Part shown: one piece after another, positions 1 through 21,135 of the stretch
Layout: the number at the start of each line of letters is the position of its first letter
How positions within the stretch are numbered: the first letter of the stretch is position 1
Source: a virus
DNA length: 21,776 nt
IMG/VR virus record: IMGVR_UViG_3300030085_004316
Location: 1-21,776 of that record
Strand: one strand, 5' to 3'
Notes under the pieces: model-generated
What the model was told of the DNA's origin: nothing
Database searches by the model: none
Seen by the model: only the letters and a program-made list of their open reading frames with translations
Translations under genes and position numbers: made by a program

Positions 1-264
1 AAGGTCAAGACTTATCGTGACAGCAATAAAGACGACATCATTGATTGTGATGTGGAGTCTATTACTGAAGGCTACTACGGCATCAACATTCACAAGGCCG
101 GCGCGCACTCGACGCAAGTAGATCGGTGGTCAGCTGGATGCCAAGTGTTTGCGAACGCCGATGACTTCGCCGAGTTCATGGACATCTGCTACAAGGCTCG
201 AGACAACTGGGGCAACTCGTTTAGCTACACCCTGGTGCCTGAAGAAGCCAAACGAGTGGTCTGA
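1..264 (+). CDS. Peptidoglycan-active enzyme, L,D-transpeptidase-like C-terminus (5' partial)
   Basis: The reading frame is open from base 1 (first codons K-V-K-T-Y-R), so the gene enters from the left and only about 87 C-terminal residues are visible. An internal GTG at position 52 is probably not the true start. The segment GINIHKAG, followed about 15 residues later by RWSAGCQVF, gives a His then a Ser-x-Gly-Cys arrangement like the catalytic region of YkuD-type L,D-transpeptidases and related phage cell-wall enzymes. A lysis role (endolysin) or a structural peptidoglycan-processing role is inferred from this motif and from the following membrane proteins. The stop TGA overlaps the next ATG by one base (TGATG), indicating translational coupling. 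The family call is from memory of the motif and is moderate only. Confidence 0.6.
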   Translation, partial: KVKTYRDSNKDDIIDCDVESITEGYYGINIHKAGAHSTQVDRWSAGCQVFANADDFAEFMDICYKARDNWGNSFSYTLVPEEAKRVV

Positions 265-6078: not shown

Positions 6079-6107
6079 AGAGTACTGAGTATCACAATGT
6101 GTGTCAA
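6079..6107 (-). promoter_or_regulatory. Sigma70-like leftward promoter of the recombination operon
   Basis: On the minus strand, TTGACA (6107-6102), a 17-base spacer and TACTCT (6084-6079) give a near-consensus promoter. Transcription would begin near 6072, about a dozen bases before the exonuclease ATG at 6059. The leader is CACCAGAAGAGAGGAACAT. Confidence 0.8.
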
Positions 6108-6117
6108 CCGGCCACAC

Positions 6118-6173: not shown

Positions 6174-6413
6174 ATGGTCATAGCTGAGTATCGTAAGAGC
6201 CTGCCGGGTCGAAGTACGAGAGCCAAGTTTGTCGTTTGGTTGAATGGTGAATTGGTCCGTTTCGATATGAAAATCAGTATCGGATACCTCAGAGATTTGG
6301 AATACGGACGCAAAACACCGTCACTGCCACTGGCAATCGGAATCGAGAGAGCTACTGGTGGCATAGTCTCTGTGAGAGAATGGCCTGGGCTGAATCCATG
6401 CCTACGAATATGA
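6174..6413 (+). CDS. Small putative DNA-binding regulator (Cro-like)
   Basis: A 79-residue protein. The segment KISIGYLRDLEYGRKTPSLPLAIGIERATGGIVSVREW resembles the second half of a small lambda-type helix-turn-helix regulator: a recognition-helix-like SIGYLRDLEYGRKTPS, then a helix choosing the cofactor-like ERATGG. The N-terminal part includes a basic LPGRSTRAKFVVWL helix. I chose ATG 6174 because AAGGTG lies six bases upstream; the longer frame from 6051 would run through the promoters. It diverges from the recombination operon, as Cro/cI-type genes do. It could repress the leftward promoter or its own. Target sites such as 6118-6127 are candidates. The fold call is by pattern only. Confidence 0.72.
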   Translation: MVIAEYRKSLPGRSTRAKFVVWLNGELVRFDMKISIGYLRDLEYGRKTPSLPLAIGIERATGGIVSVREWPGLNPCLRI

Positions 6414-6424
6414 AGGAGTCAAAC

Positions 6425-6751
6425 ATGAGTTTGAAAGACAAAGTAGACGCAATCATTGAAGCACGGAAGCCTGGGAGATTCGTCATTCCAGGATACGACA
6501 CAAACGATGTGCTCAATACACTCATTCGATACATCGTCGAGCTCGAGCAAGGAGTCAGCGAGGCCCAGCAACTTCGGGTCAAAGTTGGCATCCTAGAGGC
6601 AAAGATCGAGGCGGGTTCGGACGGTAAGTTCGGCACTAAGGATGACAAGGTCACCTTGACTAAGGCTAAGAAGCCTGCCGCCAAAAAGGCTGCTGCAAAG
6701 AAGCCCGCTGCAAAGAAGACGACCAAGCGCTCTACCAAGAAGAGTACTTAG
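6425..6751 (+). CDS. Coiled-coil protein with histone-H1-like lysine tail
   Basis: This 108-residue protein has two parts. Residues 1-70 contain an amphipathic segment (NDVLNTLIRYIVELEQGVSEAQQLRVKVGILEAKIEA) expected to form a dimeric coiled coil. From about residue 78 the chain becomes almost only Lys, Ala, Pro and Thr in repeated PAAKK-type units, ending TKRSTKKST. Such tails are known in bacterial H1-like and AlgP-like proteins and bind DNA nonspecifically. The ATG at 6425 has AAGGAG six bases upstream, overlapping the previous gene's stop. A nucleoid-binding or host-chromosome-modifying role is inferred. The stop codon overlaps the stop of the convergent gene at 6748. Confidence 0.8.
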   Translation: MSLKDKVDAIIEARKPGRFVIPGYDTNDVLNTLIRYIVELEQGVSEAQQLRVKVGILEAKIEAGSDGKFGTKDDKVTLTKAKKPAAKKAAAKKPAAKKTTKRSTKKST

Positions 6752-7552: not shown

Positions 7553-8887
7553 CTAGTCCTCTGCTTTATTTTCAACCACTGCGGTCGGCTTTTCAATTGG
7601 TATGACGTTGTCGGGATTTATTTTTCTCCAGACGTATTTTCGCTCTCCGTATATTCGACGCCTTACCTTTTCGTAGTTGAGATCTCTCATGATGTCTGCG
7701 ACTCTCATCTCTGAAGCGCGAGTCATCTGGTACTTCTCAAGCTTGAGCGCCTCCGTCATGATGTCTGTAGTCGATGCACCGGATGTGCTTGTCACCAACC
7801 AGTTGTCGATGATTTCATGCCACGGGTCAATCTGCTTGAACTCAGAAGATTGGCTTTCCAGTTCCTTCTGACTTTCGTCTTGTAGGTACCACTTCTCTCC
7901 GTTGTTGTATGCAACCACTGCCTCCGCCCACAGCTGGGCGCGATTTGTTTCCGTCCATTCGGTGTCGATTGCTCCGATTTGAATCGGCCAGTAGCGTCTT
8001 GAACCAGTCTGATCTGTGATGAACTCAGCCTTGTTGGTCGTACCGCAGAACACGGTGTGTCGTTTCAGGCTCACTGGTTGGCGTGCATACGGCGCCCGGA
8101 ACGTGTCCTCTTGTGCAGACAAGAACGCCTTCGTACTTGAGTTACGAGCACGGTGAATCGAGTCCAGCTCGGCCACCTCGTAAATCCATGCTCGATGAAT
8201 CTGCATGTATGCATTGCTAGAACCGATGTCCATCGGCGTGTCACAGAAGTACTCTGGAGACGCTAGGATTCGGAATGTCGTGCTTTTACGAGCGCCTTGG
8301 GGTCCGACAAGGATGAGCACACAGTCGGCCTTACAGCCTGGTTCCATGGCTCTAGCGATGCATTGTACAAGCCATCTTCTGCCAATCTCTCTGGCAAGCT
8401 TCGTATCTTCCGTGCCGCAGCCACGAATCAACCATTCGTCCATGCGAGGCACACCGTCCCACACAATATCTTTGAGCCACGATACGAGTGGGTTTCGCCC
8501 ATTCTCCTCTGAAACAAAGTTGACTGCTTCGACTATCATGTCCGTACTGAAGTGGACTCCATACTGGTTGTACATCCACGTCTTGACCCGCGTATAGTCT
8601 GTGTCTTTCAGCGGTCGATCCACGTTGTAAATGGTGTTGCTGAACTCGTTCAACCAAATCTTTTTCTTCCAGCGTTTGTCGCGTTGAAGAATGATCAACA
8701 GGTTCGGCACCGTAGATTTAATTTTCTGTGTGCCGTCTTTGTTGGTCTGCATCTCAAGCATGCTCATGATGCGACCATCGGCTCCGGACTGGCCGTTCAC
8801 TTCATGATGCTTTTCTGCCATGGCCAACAGATCACTGAGTCGAGGTGACCCCTCTTTTCCGTCAATGACTGAATCAATATCAAGCAT
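7553..8887 (-). CDS. VapE-family P-loop helicase/ATPase
   Basis: A 444-residue protein of the virulence-associated protein E (VapE) family, the usual helicase partner of phage primases. The P-loop is GPQGARKST (residues about 195-203). WIYEVAELDSI provides the Walker B-like acidic pair, and HTVFCGTTNKAEFITDQTGSRRYWPI gives the sensor and arginine-finger region typical of the family. The region before the P-loop (VSWLKDIVWDGVPRMDEWL) is also family-typical. The C-terminus carries a winged-helix-like ATTDIMTEALKLEKYQMTRASEMRVADIMRDL segment. I prefer ATG 8887, with AGGTGG five bases upstream, over GTG 8896. It overlaps the primase end by eight bases. Confidence 0.9.
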   Translation of the reverse strand: MLDIDSVIDGKEGSPRLSDLLAMAEKHHEVNGQSGADGRIMSMLEMQTNKDGTQKIKSTVPNLLIILQRDKRWKKKIWLNEFSNTIYNVDRPLKDTDYTRVKTWMYNQYGVHFSTDMIVEAVNFVSEENGRNPLVSWLKDIVWDGVPRMDEWLIRGCGTEDTKLAREIGRRWLVQCIARAMEPGCKADCVLILVGPQGARKSTTFRILASPEYFCDTPMDIGSSNAYMQIHRAWIYEVAELDSIHRARNSSTKAFLSAQEDTFRAPYARQPVSLKRHTVFCGTTNKAEFITDQTGSRRYWPIQIGAIDTEWTETNRAQLWAEAVVAYNNGEKWYLQDESQKELESQSSEFKQIDPWHEIIDNWLVTSTSGASTTDIMTEALKLEKYQMTRASEMRVADIMRDLNYEKVRRRIYGERKYVWRKINPDNVIPIEKPTAVVENKAED

Positions 8888-9896
8888 CAGGACCACCTAC
8901 GAGCTCCTCAAGAGGAATCCTGTATGACACTCGATTGCCGAGCTGCACCTTGATTTTGTTGGCATATTCACGTCCCTGGTCATCAGGGTCCGTACCGATA
9001 TATATTTTCAGATTCTTTGGTATTTTGAGTTTCGATACCGAATCGAAGGCGCCGGACGCGCCGCCAAGGACGGCAAGTTTCAGGTTCAAATCCTCGACTT
9101 CAGCTGCACACTTCAAGAAGTCAGTCAGTCCCTCGACGAACAACACGCCATCCAGATCTACAGCAAGGCCTTTGAGCATCTTGACTGCAAATCGGTTTGG
9201 CATGAATAGTCCTTTCGCTTCGTAGCCCTTGGGCCACAACGTCTTTGGTGCTGATTCTGGGGTTCGAATCGCGCGTCCATGCAGACTAACAAAGTTGCCG
9301 AGCTCATCAAAAGCAGGAACGATGACCCGCCACAGTGAACTACGACCTGGCGGCCACCACGATGGCCATTGATACTTAGCTCTCTGCGGTGTGAATCGGA
9401 CGACGCCGGACTTGGCCAACGCCTTCAAATCAAGATTGCGGGTTTTAAGAAACTTGATGCATTCGTCATCCCGATCGAGTTGGTGCAACTGCATTGAACT
9501 CGTCCAGAGTGATTTCACCTCATCGAGTGGTGGTCGACTACCCCTGAGCTTTTGTGGCTCTGAACTCAAGTCAATACCAGAACTGATTTCTCCTTCGAAC
9601 CACTTACGAACCGCATCTTTGTTTGCACTGTCCAAGTCTTTAAACTTGGCGCCGCCAATATGAAAAGAGACCAAATCAATGCCAGATCCCTTGGCTTTAC
9701 ATCGATGACACTCCCAACCTTTGTTGTCGGTTCGAATGCCGATGGCACCGCGCTTGTCTTTAGAGCCTCTTTCCTTTGTTAGACAACTCGGGCAAGGTCC
9801 AAGGGAGTTGGCCTTCATCAAGGTCAAGCCAAGTCGTTGTGCTACTTCTGTTACTGCTACGCGCTCTGCTGCATGAATCCACACGGATCGCTCCAT
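8880..9896 (-). CDS. CHC2-Toprim DNA primase
   Basis: A 338-residue primase. The N-terminal zinc finger has CPSC (Cys35, Cys38) and CHRC (Cys63, Cys66), spaced with the usual basic linker and a following GSGIDLVSFH motif. The Toprim domain has VLFVEGLTD with Glu255, LGGASGA, and IGTDPDDQG around residues 301-308, the metal-binding triad. It would make RNA primers for phage replication, with the overlapping VapE helicase as partner. ATG 9896 is preceded by a TTG at 9899, and the frame is closed by TAA shortly upstream. No Shine-Dalgarno is present; instead there is a run of seven C just before the start. Confidence 0.9.
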   Translation of the reverse strand: MERSVWIHAAERVAVTEVAQRLGLTLMKANSLGPCPSCLTKERGSKDKRGAIGIRTDNKGWECHRCKAKGSGIDLVSFHIGGAKFKDLDSANKDAVRKWFEGEISSGIDLSSEPQKLRGSRPPLDEVKSLWTSSMQLHQLDRDDECIKFLKTRNLDLKALAKSGVVRFTPQRAKYQWPSWWPPGRSSLWRVIVPAFDELGNFVSLHGRAIRTPESAPKTLWPKGYEAKGLFMPNRFAVKMLKGLAVDLDGVLFVEGLTDFLKCAAEVEDLNLKLAVLGGASGAFDSVSKLKIPKNLKIYIGTDPDDQGREYANKIKVQLGNRVSYRIPLEELVGGPDA

Positions 9897-9926
9897 CAAT
9901 CGGGGGGGAAGGTTTTACCAAGAAGA

Positions 9927-10199
9927 TCAAACGCGCTCGATCTTCCATTTACATTTGCCGTCCGAAGTAATCAGCAGGTCCATGCTGACTCCAGCTCGCT
10001 CCTTCGCTAGGCTTGCATACCTGGCTAGAAGGTTTACCGAGATCGGATTGCGCCCCCCCTTAAGGGCGTGCCACAGATGTGTGTGCGAAACTCCCAACAC
10101 TCTGCCGACTTCACGGTACGAATCACCGAGCTCATCGAACAATGCTTTCAAGGCAGGGTTGGTATCGATTACGAATTTTTTCTGGTCTGCATCCGACAT
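9927..10199 (-). CDS. Helix-turn-helix repressor-like regulator
   Basis: A 90-residue protein with a clear XRE/lambda-type helix-turn-helix: GDSYREVGRVLGVSHTHLWHALKGGRNPISVNLLARYASL (residues about 25-65), where REVGRVLGVS and HTHLWHALKGGR are the two helices. The ATG at 10199 is chosen because AAAGGAGAT lies six bases upstream; the longer frame from 10256 would cross the promoter. It is the first gene of the primase/VapE operon and is expressed from a TTGACA promoter next to a perfect palindrome at 10257-10272. It is therefore the best candidate for the protein that binds the repeated CTACAT-N-T-R-G sites. Confidence 0.85.
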   Translation of the reverse strand: MSDADQKKFVIDTNPALKALFDELGDSYREVGRVLGVSHTHLWHALKGGRNPISVNLLARYASLAKERAGVSMDLLITSDGKCKWKIERV

Positions 10200-10221
10200 G
10201 TGATCTCCTTTTGGTGTAGCA

Positions 10222-10250
10222 ACAGTAGTGAACGGTCGTGGTTCTGTCAA
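10222..10250 (-). promoter_or_regulatory. Sigma70-like leftward promoter of the HTH-primase operon
   Basis: On the minus strand, TTGACA (10250-10245), a 17-base spacer and TACTGT (10227-10222). Initiation near 10215 gives a short leader containing CTACACCAAAAGGAG. The palindromic operator lies just upstream of the -35 box. Confidence 0.8.
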
Positions 10251-10256
10251 AGACAC

Positions 10257-10272
10257 TCACTACATTTAGTGA
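10257..10272. promoter_or_regulatory. Palindromic operator TCACTA-CATT-TAGTGA
   Basis: A perfect inverted repeat with 6-base arms and a 4-base centre. It lies between two divergent promoters, 6 bases from the leftward -35 box and 10 bases from the rightward one. A dimeric HTH protein bound here could switch between the two directions. Related sequences occur at 6118, 14837, 18722 and 18752. Confidence 0.7.
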
Positions 10273-10282
10273 TTGTCCTCGT

Positions 10283-10311
10283 TTGTTCAACGGACTAAGG
10301 TTTGGTAGAAT
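10283..10311 (+). promoter_or_regulatory. Sigma70-like rightward promoter of the beta-protein pair
   Basis: TTGTTC (10283-10288), a 17-base spacer and TAGAAT (10306-10311) are followed by a ribosome site GGGAG at 10326-10330 and the ATG at 10337. Initiation would be near 10318. Confidence 0.75.
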
Positions 10312-10336
10312 ACGATGTCTTCGCTGGGAGTATCTG

Positions 10337-10699
10337 ATGGCACTGACGGTAACTGGCTTTTCGAACACCTCTTTGAGCTACAAGATCGCCACCGAGTCCA
10401 ACGCGAGTGATTCGCTGAGCTCTGACATTTTTGGTGGCTCTGGAACGCTGTACGCTATTGATTTCGACAATCAGTCGTCTAACCCTGCCTTCCTCAAGAT
10501 TTATCTGCGTAGCGGAACAGTGACCGTCGGCACTACACAACCGGACCTGATGCTGCACCTTGAGGCGAACAAGGCGTCTACTCTTCAGCTTCCTGCAGGT
10601 CTTGCATTCACTCAGCTTTCTTTCTGGGTGACAGACGCAGCGGCAACTTCCGACACGGGCGATCCTGGCACCGTAGTCCTCACTTTCCTTTGCGCTTGA
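10337..10699 (+). CDS. Beta-rich protein, first of a paralogous pair
   Basis: A 120-residue protein with alternating hydrophobic and polar residues throughout, many Ser/Thr/Gly and no long helix, indicating a beta sandwich. The segment TLYAIDFDNQSSNPAFLKIYL, later LEANKASTLQLPAGLAF, and the end TVVLTFLCA match the next gene in order and spacing. No signal peptide or membrane span is present. Size and composition fit a virion decoration, spike or fibre subunit, or a small secreted-type antigen, but no family is recognised. The ATG at 10337 has GGGAG six bases upstream and follows a predicted promoter. It is transcribed against the surrounding replication genes. Confidence 0.78.
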   Translation: MALTVTGFSNTSLSYKIATESNASDSLSSDIFGGSGTLYAIDFDNQSSNPAFLKIYLRSGTVTVGTTQPDLMLHLEANKASTLQLPAGLAFTQLSFWVTDAAATSDTGDPGTVVLTFLCA

Positions 10700-10706
10700 G
10701 GTAAGC

Positions 10707-11075
10707 ATGGCTGTAACTACAACAACTGCATCCAACCCATTGGTCACCACAATCGTGGTGGATACTGATGCGGACCTCACCGTTGAAGCTGTTGCTTCTG
10801 GCAATAAAACTTTGTACGCAGTGGAAATCACCAACCCCAACACCGCTGACGCAGTGTATGTGCATGTGATTGAGAACACGTCTGGAACGACAGGAACTCA
10901 GCACGAGTTCCAGTTTTACTGCCCAGCAAACACATCTTGCTACTACTACTTCCCGACGGGTATTGAGACTGGCACAGGACTGATGGCGTATGCTTCTACT
11001 ACATCCGGTGGTGGTCAAAGCGCAACGGCTCCCGAAGAATCAGTCACCGTCACGTTCGGATTCACAGCTCGATAG
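10707..11075 (+). CDS. Beta-rich protein, second of a paralogous pair
   Basis: A 122-residue protein related to the preceding gene: TLYAVEITNPNTADAVYVHV corresponds to TLYAIDFDNQSSNPAFLKIY, and CPANTSCYYYFPTGIETGTGLMAY to EANKASTLQLPAGLAFTQLSF, each followed by a Gly/Ser-rich loop and a final VTVTF-type strand. It is Thr-rich at the N-terminus (TTTTASNPLVTTIVV). The start is seven bases after the previous stop, with GAGG overlapping that stop. Tandem duplication followed by divergence is inferred. The pair may form a hetero-oligomeric virion ornament. Its TAG directly abuts the TAG of the convergent gene, making the palindrome TAGCTA. Confidence 0.78.
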   Translation: MAVTTTTASNPLVTTIVVDTDADLTVEAVASGNKTLYAVEITNPNTADAVYVHVIENTSGTTGTQHEFQFYCPANTSCYYYFPTGIETGTGLMAYASTTSGGGQSATAPEESVTVTFGFTAR

Positions 11076-11339
11076 CTAGACCAGACAGTCAGCTGCGCCT
11101 TCTACAGCGTGCAGCTTCCTGTTCGTCCGGTTGGGTCCGTCTCCGTAGTACAGCAAGCCGCGCTGCCTGAGGTTCGACACCGCGTCGTACACGGCGTTGA
11201 ACACCCTCTTGCGTGTGCCAGTGCCATGGTAGAGATCATCAACGATACTGTTGACGGTCTCCTCACCTGGCTCTGAGAGGACGTAGGTGAGCACGGTGCC
11301 GCGCATCGAGCTCTTCTTCACGGTGGTAGTCATGAACAT
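11076..11339 (-). CDS. Small winged-helix-like protein
   Basis: An 87-residue protein. The order helix (SSMRGTVLTYVLSEPG), helix (EETVNSIVDDLYH), helix (RKRVFNAVYDAVSNLRQRGLLYYGDG) and a short strand resembles a winged helix DNA-binding domain: VFNAVYDAVSNLRQRGLLY is the recognition-helix-plus-wing pattern. DNA binding is inferred from this alone. The ATG at 11339 has AAGGGA five bases upstream; an in-frame ATG at 11333 would overlap the preceding stop as ATGA. It is the last gene of the helicase/SSB operon and may act as a late regulator of it or of the adjacent beta-protein pair. Confidence 0.68.
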   Translation of the reverse strand: MFMTTTVKKSSMRGTVLTYVLSEPGEETVNSIVDDLYHGTGTRKRVFNAVYDAVSNLRQRGLLYYGDGPNRTNRKLHAVEGAADCLV

Positions 11340-11896: not shown

Positions 11897-11969
11897 CTGG
11901 GGCGGATGGACTCGAACCACCAACTTCCTGGGTAACAACCAGGCGTTCTGCCGATTGAACTACACCCCA
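11897..11969 (-). tRNA. tRNA-Asn (GTT)
   Basis: A complete 73-base cloverleaf on the minus strand: acceptor TGGGGTG/CGCCCCA, D arm GTTC...GAAC, anticodon stem CCTGG/CCAGG around loop TTGTTAC (anticodon GTT), variable AAGTT, T arm GGTGG-TTCGAGT-CCATC, discriminator G. The CCA is not encoded. Seven T follow directly (11896-11890), suitable for termination. The first ten bases overlap the 3' end of the methyltransferase gene. Phage tRNAs usually offset codon-use differences with the host or replace tRNAs cut by defence systems; which applies here is not known. Confidence 0.93.
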
Positions 11970-12691
11970 TGATTTCTAGACCGATCCAGCGCCAGCCGGT
12001 CAACAGCTGAGCGATAACGATCTGCATCAATCTCAGCTCCGATGTATCTCCTGCCAGTACGCGCGCAAGCACGACCAACGCTGCAGAGGCCCGCGTAAAC
12101 GTCGAGCACGAGGTCACCGGGATTGGACCACACCTCAATCATGTTGGCTTGGTACGCAATCGGCTTCTCACTGTGTGCGAGTGCCTCTCCACTCTTCGAG
12201 TGTTTGCCCCGATGCTGTTCTGTGACGTGCGTCGAACGCAGCAGCTTGGTCGTACATGGCTTGGGTTTGCCCTTCCTGTAGATGAGGATGGGCTCAGCGT
12301 TGCCTCTCCAGTGAAATCCACTGCCTGGTGCTCCAGTCTTGGCCCATGCTCCGCCGGTCACGTAGGTCCACTGGATGTTCTCGGGGGTGGCCACCGCCAT
12401 CCACTCCGCCAGTAGGGGAAACGTGGCCCACACAACCATATAGGCATCGTCCGCAGCACAATCGTATGAGCTGCGGACGTGCCTAACGATGTCATCCATG
12501 GTCAAACATGGATAATGACTCGCTGCACTGCGAGTTTTGTCGCCACTGTTGCTGTATGTCCACGGTGGGTCAACGAAAACCATGCGAGCCCCGCTCACCT
12601 CACCAAAAAGTTTGTCGATCCCGCAGTTGCGAAGGTCGATACCCTCTGGTTGCTGAGGGGCAGGTACAGAAACGAGTGACAACTGCTCCAT
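11960..12691 (-). CDS. MT-A70-type N6-adenine DNA methyltransferase
   Basis: A 243-residue protein with the catalytic motif VFVDPPWTYSN (DPPW at residues 41-44) and, near the C-terminus, the AdoMet-binding VLDVYAGLCSVGRACARTGRRYIGAEID segment. This order, catalytic motif before the AdoMet loop, fits MT-A70-like phage adenine methyltransferases. It would put N6-methyladenine in DNA, probably to protect phage DNA from restriction. No restriction partner is adjacent. The ATG at 12691 overlaps the SSB stop by one base (TAATG). The stop TAG is part of the tRNA-Asn gene at positions 8-10 of the tRNA. The target sequence cannot be read from the protein. Confidence 0.9.
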   Translation of the reverse strand: MEQLSLVSVPAPQQPEGIDLRNCGIDKLFGEVSGARMVFVDPPWTYSNSGDKTRSAASHYPCLTMDDIVRHVRSSYDCAADDAYMVVWATFPLLAEWMAVATPENIQWTYVTGGAWAKTGAPGSGFHWRGNAEPILIYRKGKPKPCTTKLLRSTHVTEQHRGKHSKSGEALAHSEKPIAYQANMIEVWSNPGDLVLDVYAGLCSVGRACARTGRRYIGAEIDADRYRSAVDRLALDRSRNHGV

Positions 12692-20383: not shown

Positions 20384-20938
20384 TTACGCGCCCCACTGCT
20401 GGGCCATCGCTTGCGCGACGCCGGCAAAGGTCTTGCTGCGGAGCTTCCATCGGTCCTCGCTGGGCGGCAGTTTCCAGATGCGCTGCTCGCGCCCGTCCAC
20501 GATGTCGGTGGGGGTGAGCTGCGGCAGACCCTTGAGCCACAGGCAGGTCGCCTTGGTCTCACCGTGACCGAACTGCCATGGCTGGATGATCTGGTCGGGC
20601 TTGCGCCACTGGGTAGACATGATGCACACCGGGTTCTCGATGGCGATCTTGGGGATGTCAGCGTTGGCGAGCGCCATGAAGAAGTCGATGGCTTGCTGCT
20701 GTCGCCCGTCCGCGCGCTTGGCTGCGAACCAGCGAGCTCCGCTGACAGCGAGATGGGTGCAGGGTGGGAACGCAATCATCATGTCCCACCCGTCGTTGAT
20801 GATGTCGAGCACAGAGCCTTGGTAGTGAGGCCCCGGAACATCGGTCGGGAGCAGGTCACAGGACACGGCGTCGTGTCCCATGGCCCTGAAAGCATCGCGG
20901 ACTGCTCCGCTGTATTCGCATGCTACGAGTACGCGCAT
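20384..20938 (-). CDS. Cytosine-C5 DNA methyltransferase-like protein
   Basis: A 184-residue protein of a short phage family annotated as DNA cytosine methyltransferase. RVLVACEYSGAVRDAFRAMGHDAVSCDL is the AdoMet-binding motif I region. IAFPPCTHLAVSGARWF holds the Pro-Pro-Cys of motif IV, with the catalytic cysteine. IAIENPV corresponds to the ENV motif VI. The target-recognition domain of full-length enzymes (usually over 300 residues) is absent, so sequence-specific methylation is uncertain; it may modify free nucleotides or need a partner. ATG 20938 has GGAGGT six bases upstream and overlaps the prior stop by one base. Confidence 0.8.
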   Translation of the reverse strand: MRVLVACEYSGAVRDAFRAMGHDAVSCDLLPTDVPGPHYQGSVLDIINDGWDMMIAFPPCTHLAVSGARWFAAKRADGRQQQAIDFFMALANADIPKIAIENPVCIMSTQWRKPDQIIQPWQFGHGETKATCLWLKGLPQLTPTDIVDGREQRIWKLPPSEDRWKLRSKTFAGVAQAMAQQWGA

Positions 20939-21135
20939 CACGCACCTCCCAAGGCATTCTCTGCGGCCAGTACAATCTCACACTCCTCGCAGTTTTCGTC
21001 CGTGCAAGCGTGGTCTTCGCGGTAGACACTGAGGAGTTTGAGCGCATCCCGAAGCGCAGCCAGAAGCATCTTGTTCTTTGCATTCAAGTCTGAACACTCT
21101 GCAAGCAACTCAAGGTATCCTCCACGGTAGTCCAT
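20938..21135 (-). CDS. Small helical unknown protein
   Basis: A 65-residue helical protein (MDYRGGYLELLAECSDLNAKNKMLLAALRDALKLLSVYRED) with a late C-x5-C-x2-C group (ACTDENCEEC) that might bind a metal. ATG 21135 is preceded by AAGGAGGTGAGTG and overlaps the upstream stop (TGATG). The GGA GGT GCG codons at its end give Gly-Gly-Ala and form the ribosome site of the methyltransferase-like gene. Function unknown. Confidence 0.68.
   Translation of the reverse strand: MDYRGGYLELLAECSDLNAKNKMLLAALRDALKLLSVYREDHACTDENCEECEIVLAAENALGGA

Follow-up and report, generated by a model that had tools for sequence, protein, structure and literature searches.

The stretch of viral DNA analysed here (the window, 21,776 nucleotides of an IMG/VR virus record) contains two adjacent rightward genes, located at 10337-10699 (+) and 10707-11075 (+), that encode proteins of 120 and 122 amino acids, respectively. 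The first (A-type) gene is preceded by a ribosome-binding-like GGGAG, read from the sequence at 10326-10330 (+), and the second (B-type) gene meets a convergent leftward gene at 11076-11339 (-), directly right of the pair. Divergently oriented from the first gene is its conserved partner, the gene of a small helix-turn-helix (HTH) protein (9927-10199 (-), 90 amino acids from the ATG at 10199), whose Xre/HTH_31-like match falls below the Pfam cut-off. Downstream of the HTH gene lies that of a DNA primase with a Toprim domain (8880-9899 (-)). This divergent layout, with HTH protein and primase encoded leftward and a pair of unknown proteins encoded rightward, is the one given in the initial annotation, and both open reading frames are present at the lengths it proposed. 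The two proteins share ~23% identity in direct comparison, and their relation as remote paralogs is confirmed by profile-profile comparison (E 2.6e-15 over 116 columns). They have an acidic predicted pI of ~4.1, and both genes are under purifying selection, with dN/dS of about 0.05-0.2 (~0.1 for the first and ~0.1-0.2 for the second).

The pair had been described as standing alone against the direction of the surrounding replication genes. It does lie on the opposite strand, but it is not the sole rightward insertion, since small + strand genes are also located behind a second early promoter near position 6107. That promoter, a second conserved leftward TTGACA-N17-TAnnnT sequence (6080-6110 (-)), precedes the RecE/RecT operon and has the highly conserved GGTGTGGC just upstream of it. 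Behind it, the gene at 6380-6751 (+) encodes a protein of 123 amino acids with a lysine/alanine-rich, histone-H1-like tail (KKPAAKKAAAKKPAAKK), and + strand genes recur at the same position in relatives (clusters c12 and c13). A single tRNA-Asn (GTT) is located inside the replication region at 11897-11969 (-), and two DNA methyltransferases that differ in their PHROG matches are predicted at 11960-12691 and 20384-20941 (-).

The region between the HTH gene and the pair contains a conserved promoter in each direction. The leftward promoter, TTGACA-N17-TACTGT (10250-10222 (-)), belongs to a TTGACA-N17-TAnnnT pattern that, in the region alignment of related IMG/VR contigs, was present in 16/16 and then in 36/36 contigs examined; the window contains two sites of this pattern, against 0.1 expected from shuffles. 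For the rightward promoter, an extended -10 element of the type TGnTAnnnT (TTTGGTAGAAT, 10301-10311 (+)) is kept across contigs at ~36-50 nt before the start codon; that of contig L060 was identified by direct reading of its sequence. The -35 proposed for it (TTGTTC, 10283-10288) showed no conservation in the related contigs. Hence, of the two consensus-like promoters originally proposed, the leftward one stands exactly as described, and the rightward one is retained as an extended -10 but loses its -35. The comparative evidence also bears out the proposal that the pair is provided with a promoter of its own. A generic sigma-70 scan placed neither promoter above threshold because each contains one weak hexamer. 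Two other candidates were discarded: a conserved TACATT as a + strand -10, whose upstream -35 is not conserved, and the rightward motif as a general late promoter, whose few other matches are scattered, none of them ahead of structural genes.

Located between both -35 regions, ~50 bp upstream of each predicted start, is an inverted repeat, GACACTCACTA-CATT-TAGTGATTGTC (10252-10277), whose conserved inner dyad constitutes a candidate regulator site. The initial annotation had called it a perfect palindrome flanked by the promoters; the location was correct, but the arms are complementary at 10/11 positions, with one mismatch and a loop of 4 nt. Taken in this single sequence the repeat is weak evidence, because 0-3 inverted repeats of equal quality are found per shuffled window. 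The conserved dyad is the stronger evidence. In 34 distinct sequences the dyad score at the repeat centre was 0.575, vs a mean of 0.27 over all centres and 0.376 for the next best. The inner dyad pairs in these sequences are 74-100% complementary and include an A-T to T-A exchange that stays in register; dyad position 17/20 is almost never complementary, and the outer arms are without conservation. The second early promoter has a comparable dyad of its own (CTACATGTAG, near 6107), which was rejected because relatives do not retain it.

These features had been interpreted as an operator-controlled switch. Divergent control with a conserved symmetric site is retained from that interpretation, but the dyad at 10252-10277, the one site to which this comparison applies, overlaps neither promoter. 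A repressor covering either promoter is not indicated by this dyad. Because it lies between the -35 regions and ~50 bp from the starts, an activator would suit its position no less well than a repressor would, and so would a regulator shared by both directions. The protein that binds the candidate site is probably the HTH protein, to judge from the adjacency of its gene. As in a switch of the lambda OR type, a small HTH gene accompanies two promoters that diverge around a symmetric site. The arrangement differs from that system in that the putative regulator site lies between the -35 regions, not over the promoters, and in that the product of one arm is probably a structural pair instead of a rival repressor.

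The association of the pair with the HTH gene was followed in relatives. A primase-profile scan yielded 47 loci, 44 of which reach past the HTH gene while three end before the site. The pair is divergent from the HTH gene in 44/44 contigs extending past that gene, and for one of the three shorter contigs it was found in another locus (L117). Presence and absence in relatives were compared, and the pair proved constant at the site, being missing only in a distant lineage (three contigs from the HTH scan, HTH proteins of 37-38% identity); the contig of this lineage read in detail contains a co-directional gene in place of the pair. From this absence, gain or loss is evident only at great depth. 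In a Mantel test over primase identities as low as 50%, the distances of the two pair proteins correlated with those of the primase (r 0.77 and 0.75, 0 of 2000 permutations), and the GC content of the two genes (0.53/0.51) compares with 0.50-0.52 for HTH, primase, helicase and RecT. The terminator scan gave no clear terminator just after 11075, the sites found falling inside genes, and the hairpin at the convergent end is without a U tract. From this comparison of contigs, the pair is a fixed part of the HTH-primase locus.

Profile searches recovered the family, here and elsewhere, as tandem first/second pairs. Phages in which no replication copy was seen usually contain two of them, pairs A and B, located between the tail-side genes on one side and the endolysin with a holin-like gene on the other; the gene preceding these structural pairs matches a tail fibre weakly. 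The left edge of the window falls within the endolysin gene, of which it leaves the 3' part (1-264 (+)); any structural pairs that this virus has would therefore be located beyond that edge. In replication-pair contigs with sufficient upstream sequence, one or more additional pairs occur, ~9-12 kb away from the replication pair, and the distant lineage without the pair at the site has two pairs elsewhere in both contigs searched whole. The link to the virion, which the initial annotation had discounted, gains support from these positions, because other members of the family are found at the end of the structural module. Being encoded with structural genes, as expected of a cement or decoration protein, applies to the paralogous pairs A and B and not to the replication copy.

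Two further features of the structural region were observed. A conserved small protein of membrane type, ~63 amino acids long, is encoded between pairs A and B (L034:8369-8566, L052:11359-11556, and others), and it persists in several phages missing pair A. A third, divergent pair of the family is located upstream of the terminase in a contig of 75 kb (L056:8798-9559 (-)).

Sequence searches of Pfam, PHROG and PDB gave chance-level matches only, with no family that fits, and a scan of genome contigs gave no relatives. The sole annotated relative, returned by tblastn of phage collections, is gene 171 of Virus Rctr197k (KX853510, 12001-12360; L021), a hypothetical protein with 33.6% identity (E 3e-12). 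This lone gene is located on the strand opposite its neighbours and beside large structural-type genes, so that the position against the grain recurs in a distant genome. It differs from the replication pair in being a single gene and in having no annotated HTH-primase neighbour.

The relation of the replication pair to the structural pairs was analysed with a tree of 98 proteins and with a classification of the structural slots by profile. The second proteins of the replication pairs form one clade (100/100, 22 rows). Their first proteins are placed beside structural pair A and require two changes, which is compatible with one origin. Pair B was present in all replication-pair phages examined. 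Pair A was missing from its usual slot in 9/13 replication-pair phages with the slot visible (G004, G005, G011, G024, G029, G030, G032, G033 and G036) and present in 8/8 contigs that showed no replication pair (Fisher p 0.005, uncorrected for kinship, and with some of the eight contigs being fragments that may hide a replication pair). Replacement of pair A is not general, as four replication-pair phages keep it (G001, G006, G008 and G009). The simplest account of these distributions would be the transfer of a copy of pair A to a site beside HTH-primase, with loss of the original in many lineages.

The beta-sandwich-like folds proposed initially were predicted by AlphaFold for both proteins, a jelly-roll beta-sandwich with pLDDT 91.7 for the first and a beta-sandwich with pLDDT 73.8 for the second. 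Among solved proteins of phages or other viruses, those closest in the fold search were a cement protein and a turret. The second protein aligned with the trimeric cement protein of Helicobacter phages KHP40/KHP30 (7dou, 7dn2) at Z 7.6 (rmsd 3.3, 105 residues aligned), a value among the range of unrelated jelly rolls, and the first protein matched KHP40 cement at Z 6.6, within the same range. The cement protein (124 amino acids) is of the same size as the pair proteins and of a jelly-roll-like fold, to which the models bear a resemblance at the level of unrelated jelly rolls; it differs in showing 7-9% identity, with no sequence homology found, and the family described here occurs as an A/B pair. 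The first protein also aligned with the turret of Haloferax tailed virus 1 (HFTV1; 8qpg chain TD, 114 amino acids) at Z 7.1 (rmsd 3.1, 88 residues aligned), a level common to generic folds. HFTV1 turrets consist of a hexameric base (gp30) and a trimeric head (gp31) on capsid hexamers (PMC12494034). The likeness to the turret is one of length and beta-sandwich fold; HFTV1 is an archaeal virus, and the proteins have 12% identity and no sequence link. Equal Z scores were obtained from nucleoplasmins, spore appendage pili and picornavirus coats, and matches to nucleoplasmin and cupin folds were set aside as generic. Common folds ordinarily reach Z scores of 7-8. The alignments from Foldseek against PDB were poor (TM 0.3-0.4), and BFVD contained close structural matches in uncultured phages. 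Given the equal scores above, the function of the pair is not fixed by its fold alone.

Taking these results together, we favour with moderate confidence the reading in which the pair is a relocated or duplicated pair A under its own promoter, likely forming a hetero-oligomer of the virion surface, with a control coupled to the HTH protein. Pair A of a jelly-roll family that is inherited as A/B pairs at the boundary of structural and lysis genes would have been copied or moved beside the HTH-primase operon. There it would be transcribed rightward from its own extended -10, with HTH and primase transcribed leftward, and both directions would be coupled through the symmetric site that separates the promoters and that the HTH protein probably binds. 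The likeliest product would be a hetero-oligomer of both proteins on the virion surface, as a capsid decoration or a tail ornament, and the amount or timing of the pair would thereby be set apart from the late operon. A virion role appears likely. The virion surface is the best reading because the paralogs lie beside structural genes, the proteins are inherited pairwise, constraint on them is strong and pair A is apparently substituted.

The duplicated pair beside the replication genes could nevertheless have gained a function outside the virion. It is possible, if on the unlikely side, that it was recruited to act early, in replication or host takeover, for instance as a chaperone-like or DNA-associated jelly roll, and was fixed beside HTH-primase for that reason. 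Such a recruitment would agree with the strict synteny with HTH-primase, the promoter adjoining genes of early type, the nucleoplasmin-like fold matches at Z ~7 and the acidic pI of ~4.1. However, jelly-roll matches at such Z are generic, and in phages without pair A the replication pair alone represents the A type, suggesting an identical task. Rather improbable is a receptor-binding or tail-tip pair placed on a separate promoter so that adhesion proteins would vary independently of the late operon. The gene ahead of the structural pairs does show a weak tail-fibre match, and one weak BFVD match is to a protein named tail fibre, but the genes are under purifying selection (dN/dS ~0.1) and solved receptor-binding proteins gave one chance-level match and no sequence link. 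Far less probable is the likeness to a moron cassette drawn by the initial annotation, here read as a recently acquired accessory unit that is expressed independently of the phage programme and gives a host-fitness or exclusion function. The own promoter and the orientation opposite to the neighbours would suit it, but it appears already largely refuted by the presence of the pair in all contigs tested, neither sporadic occurrence nor deviant base composition being found, the divergence following that of the primase and no clear terminator being seen just after 11075.

Returning to the relocated pair A as the favoured reading, its separation from the late genes has a bolder version, which we regard as improbable: a jelly-roll pair of virion type would have come permanently under a primase-linked HTH regulator and would act early, coupling replication to decoration or to a new host-directed role. 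No description of this arrangement was found in literature searches covering pairs of paralogous decoration proteins and structural genes with early expression. Although many uncultured phages contain the family, it matches no Pfam or PHROG model, and it duplicates as an A/B pair. One such pair would have departed from the late structural block and become fixed beside replication genes, behind a conserved regulatory region. Moreover, phages with pair A in place, with pair A and the copy, and with the copy only would offer a natural comparison for asking why one component of the particle is regulated separately.
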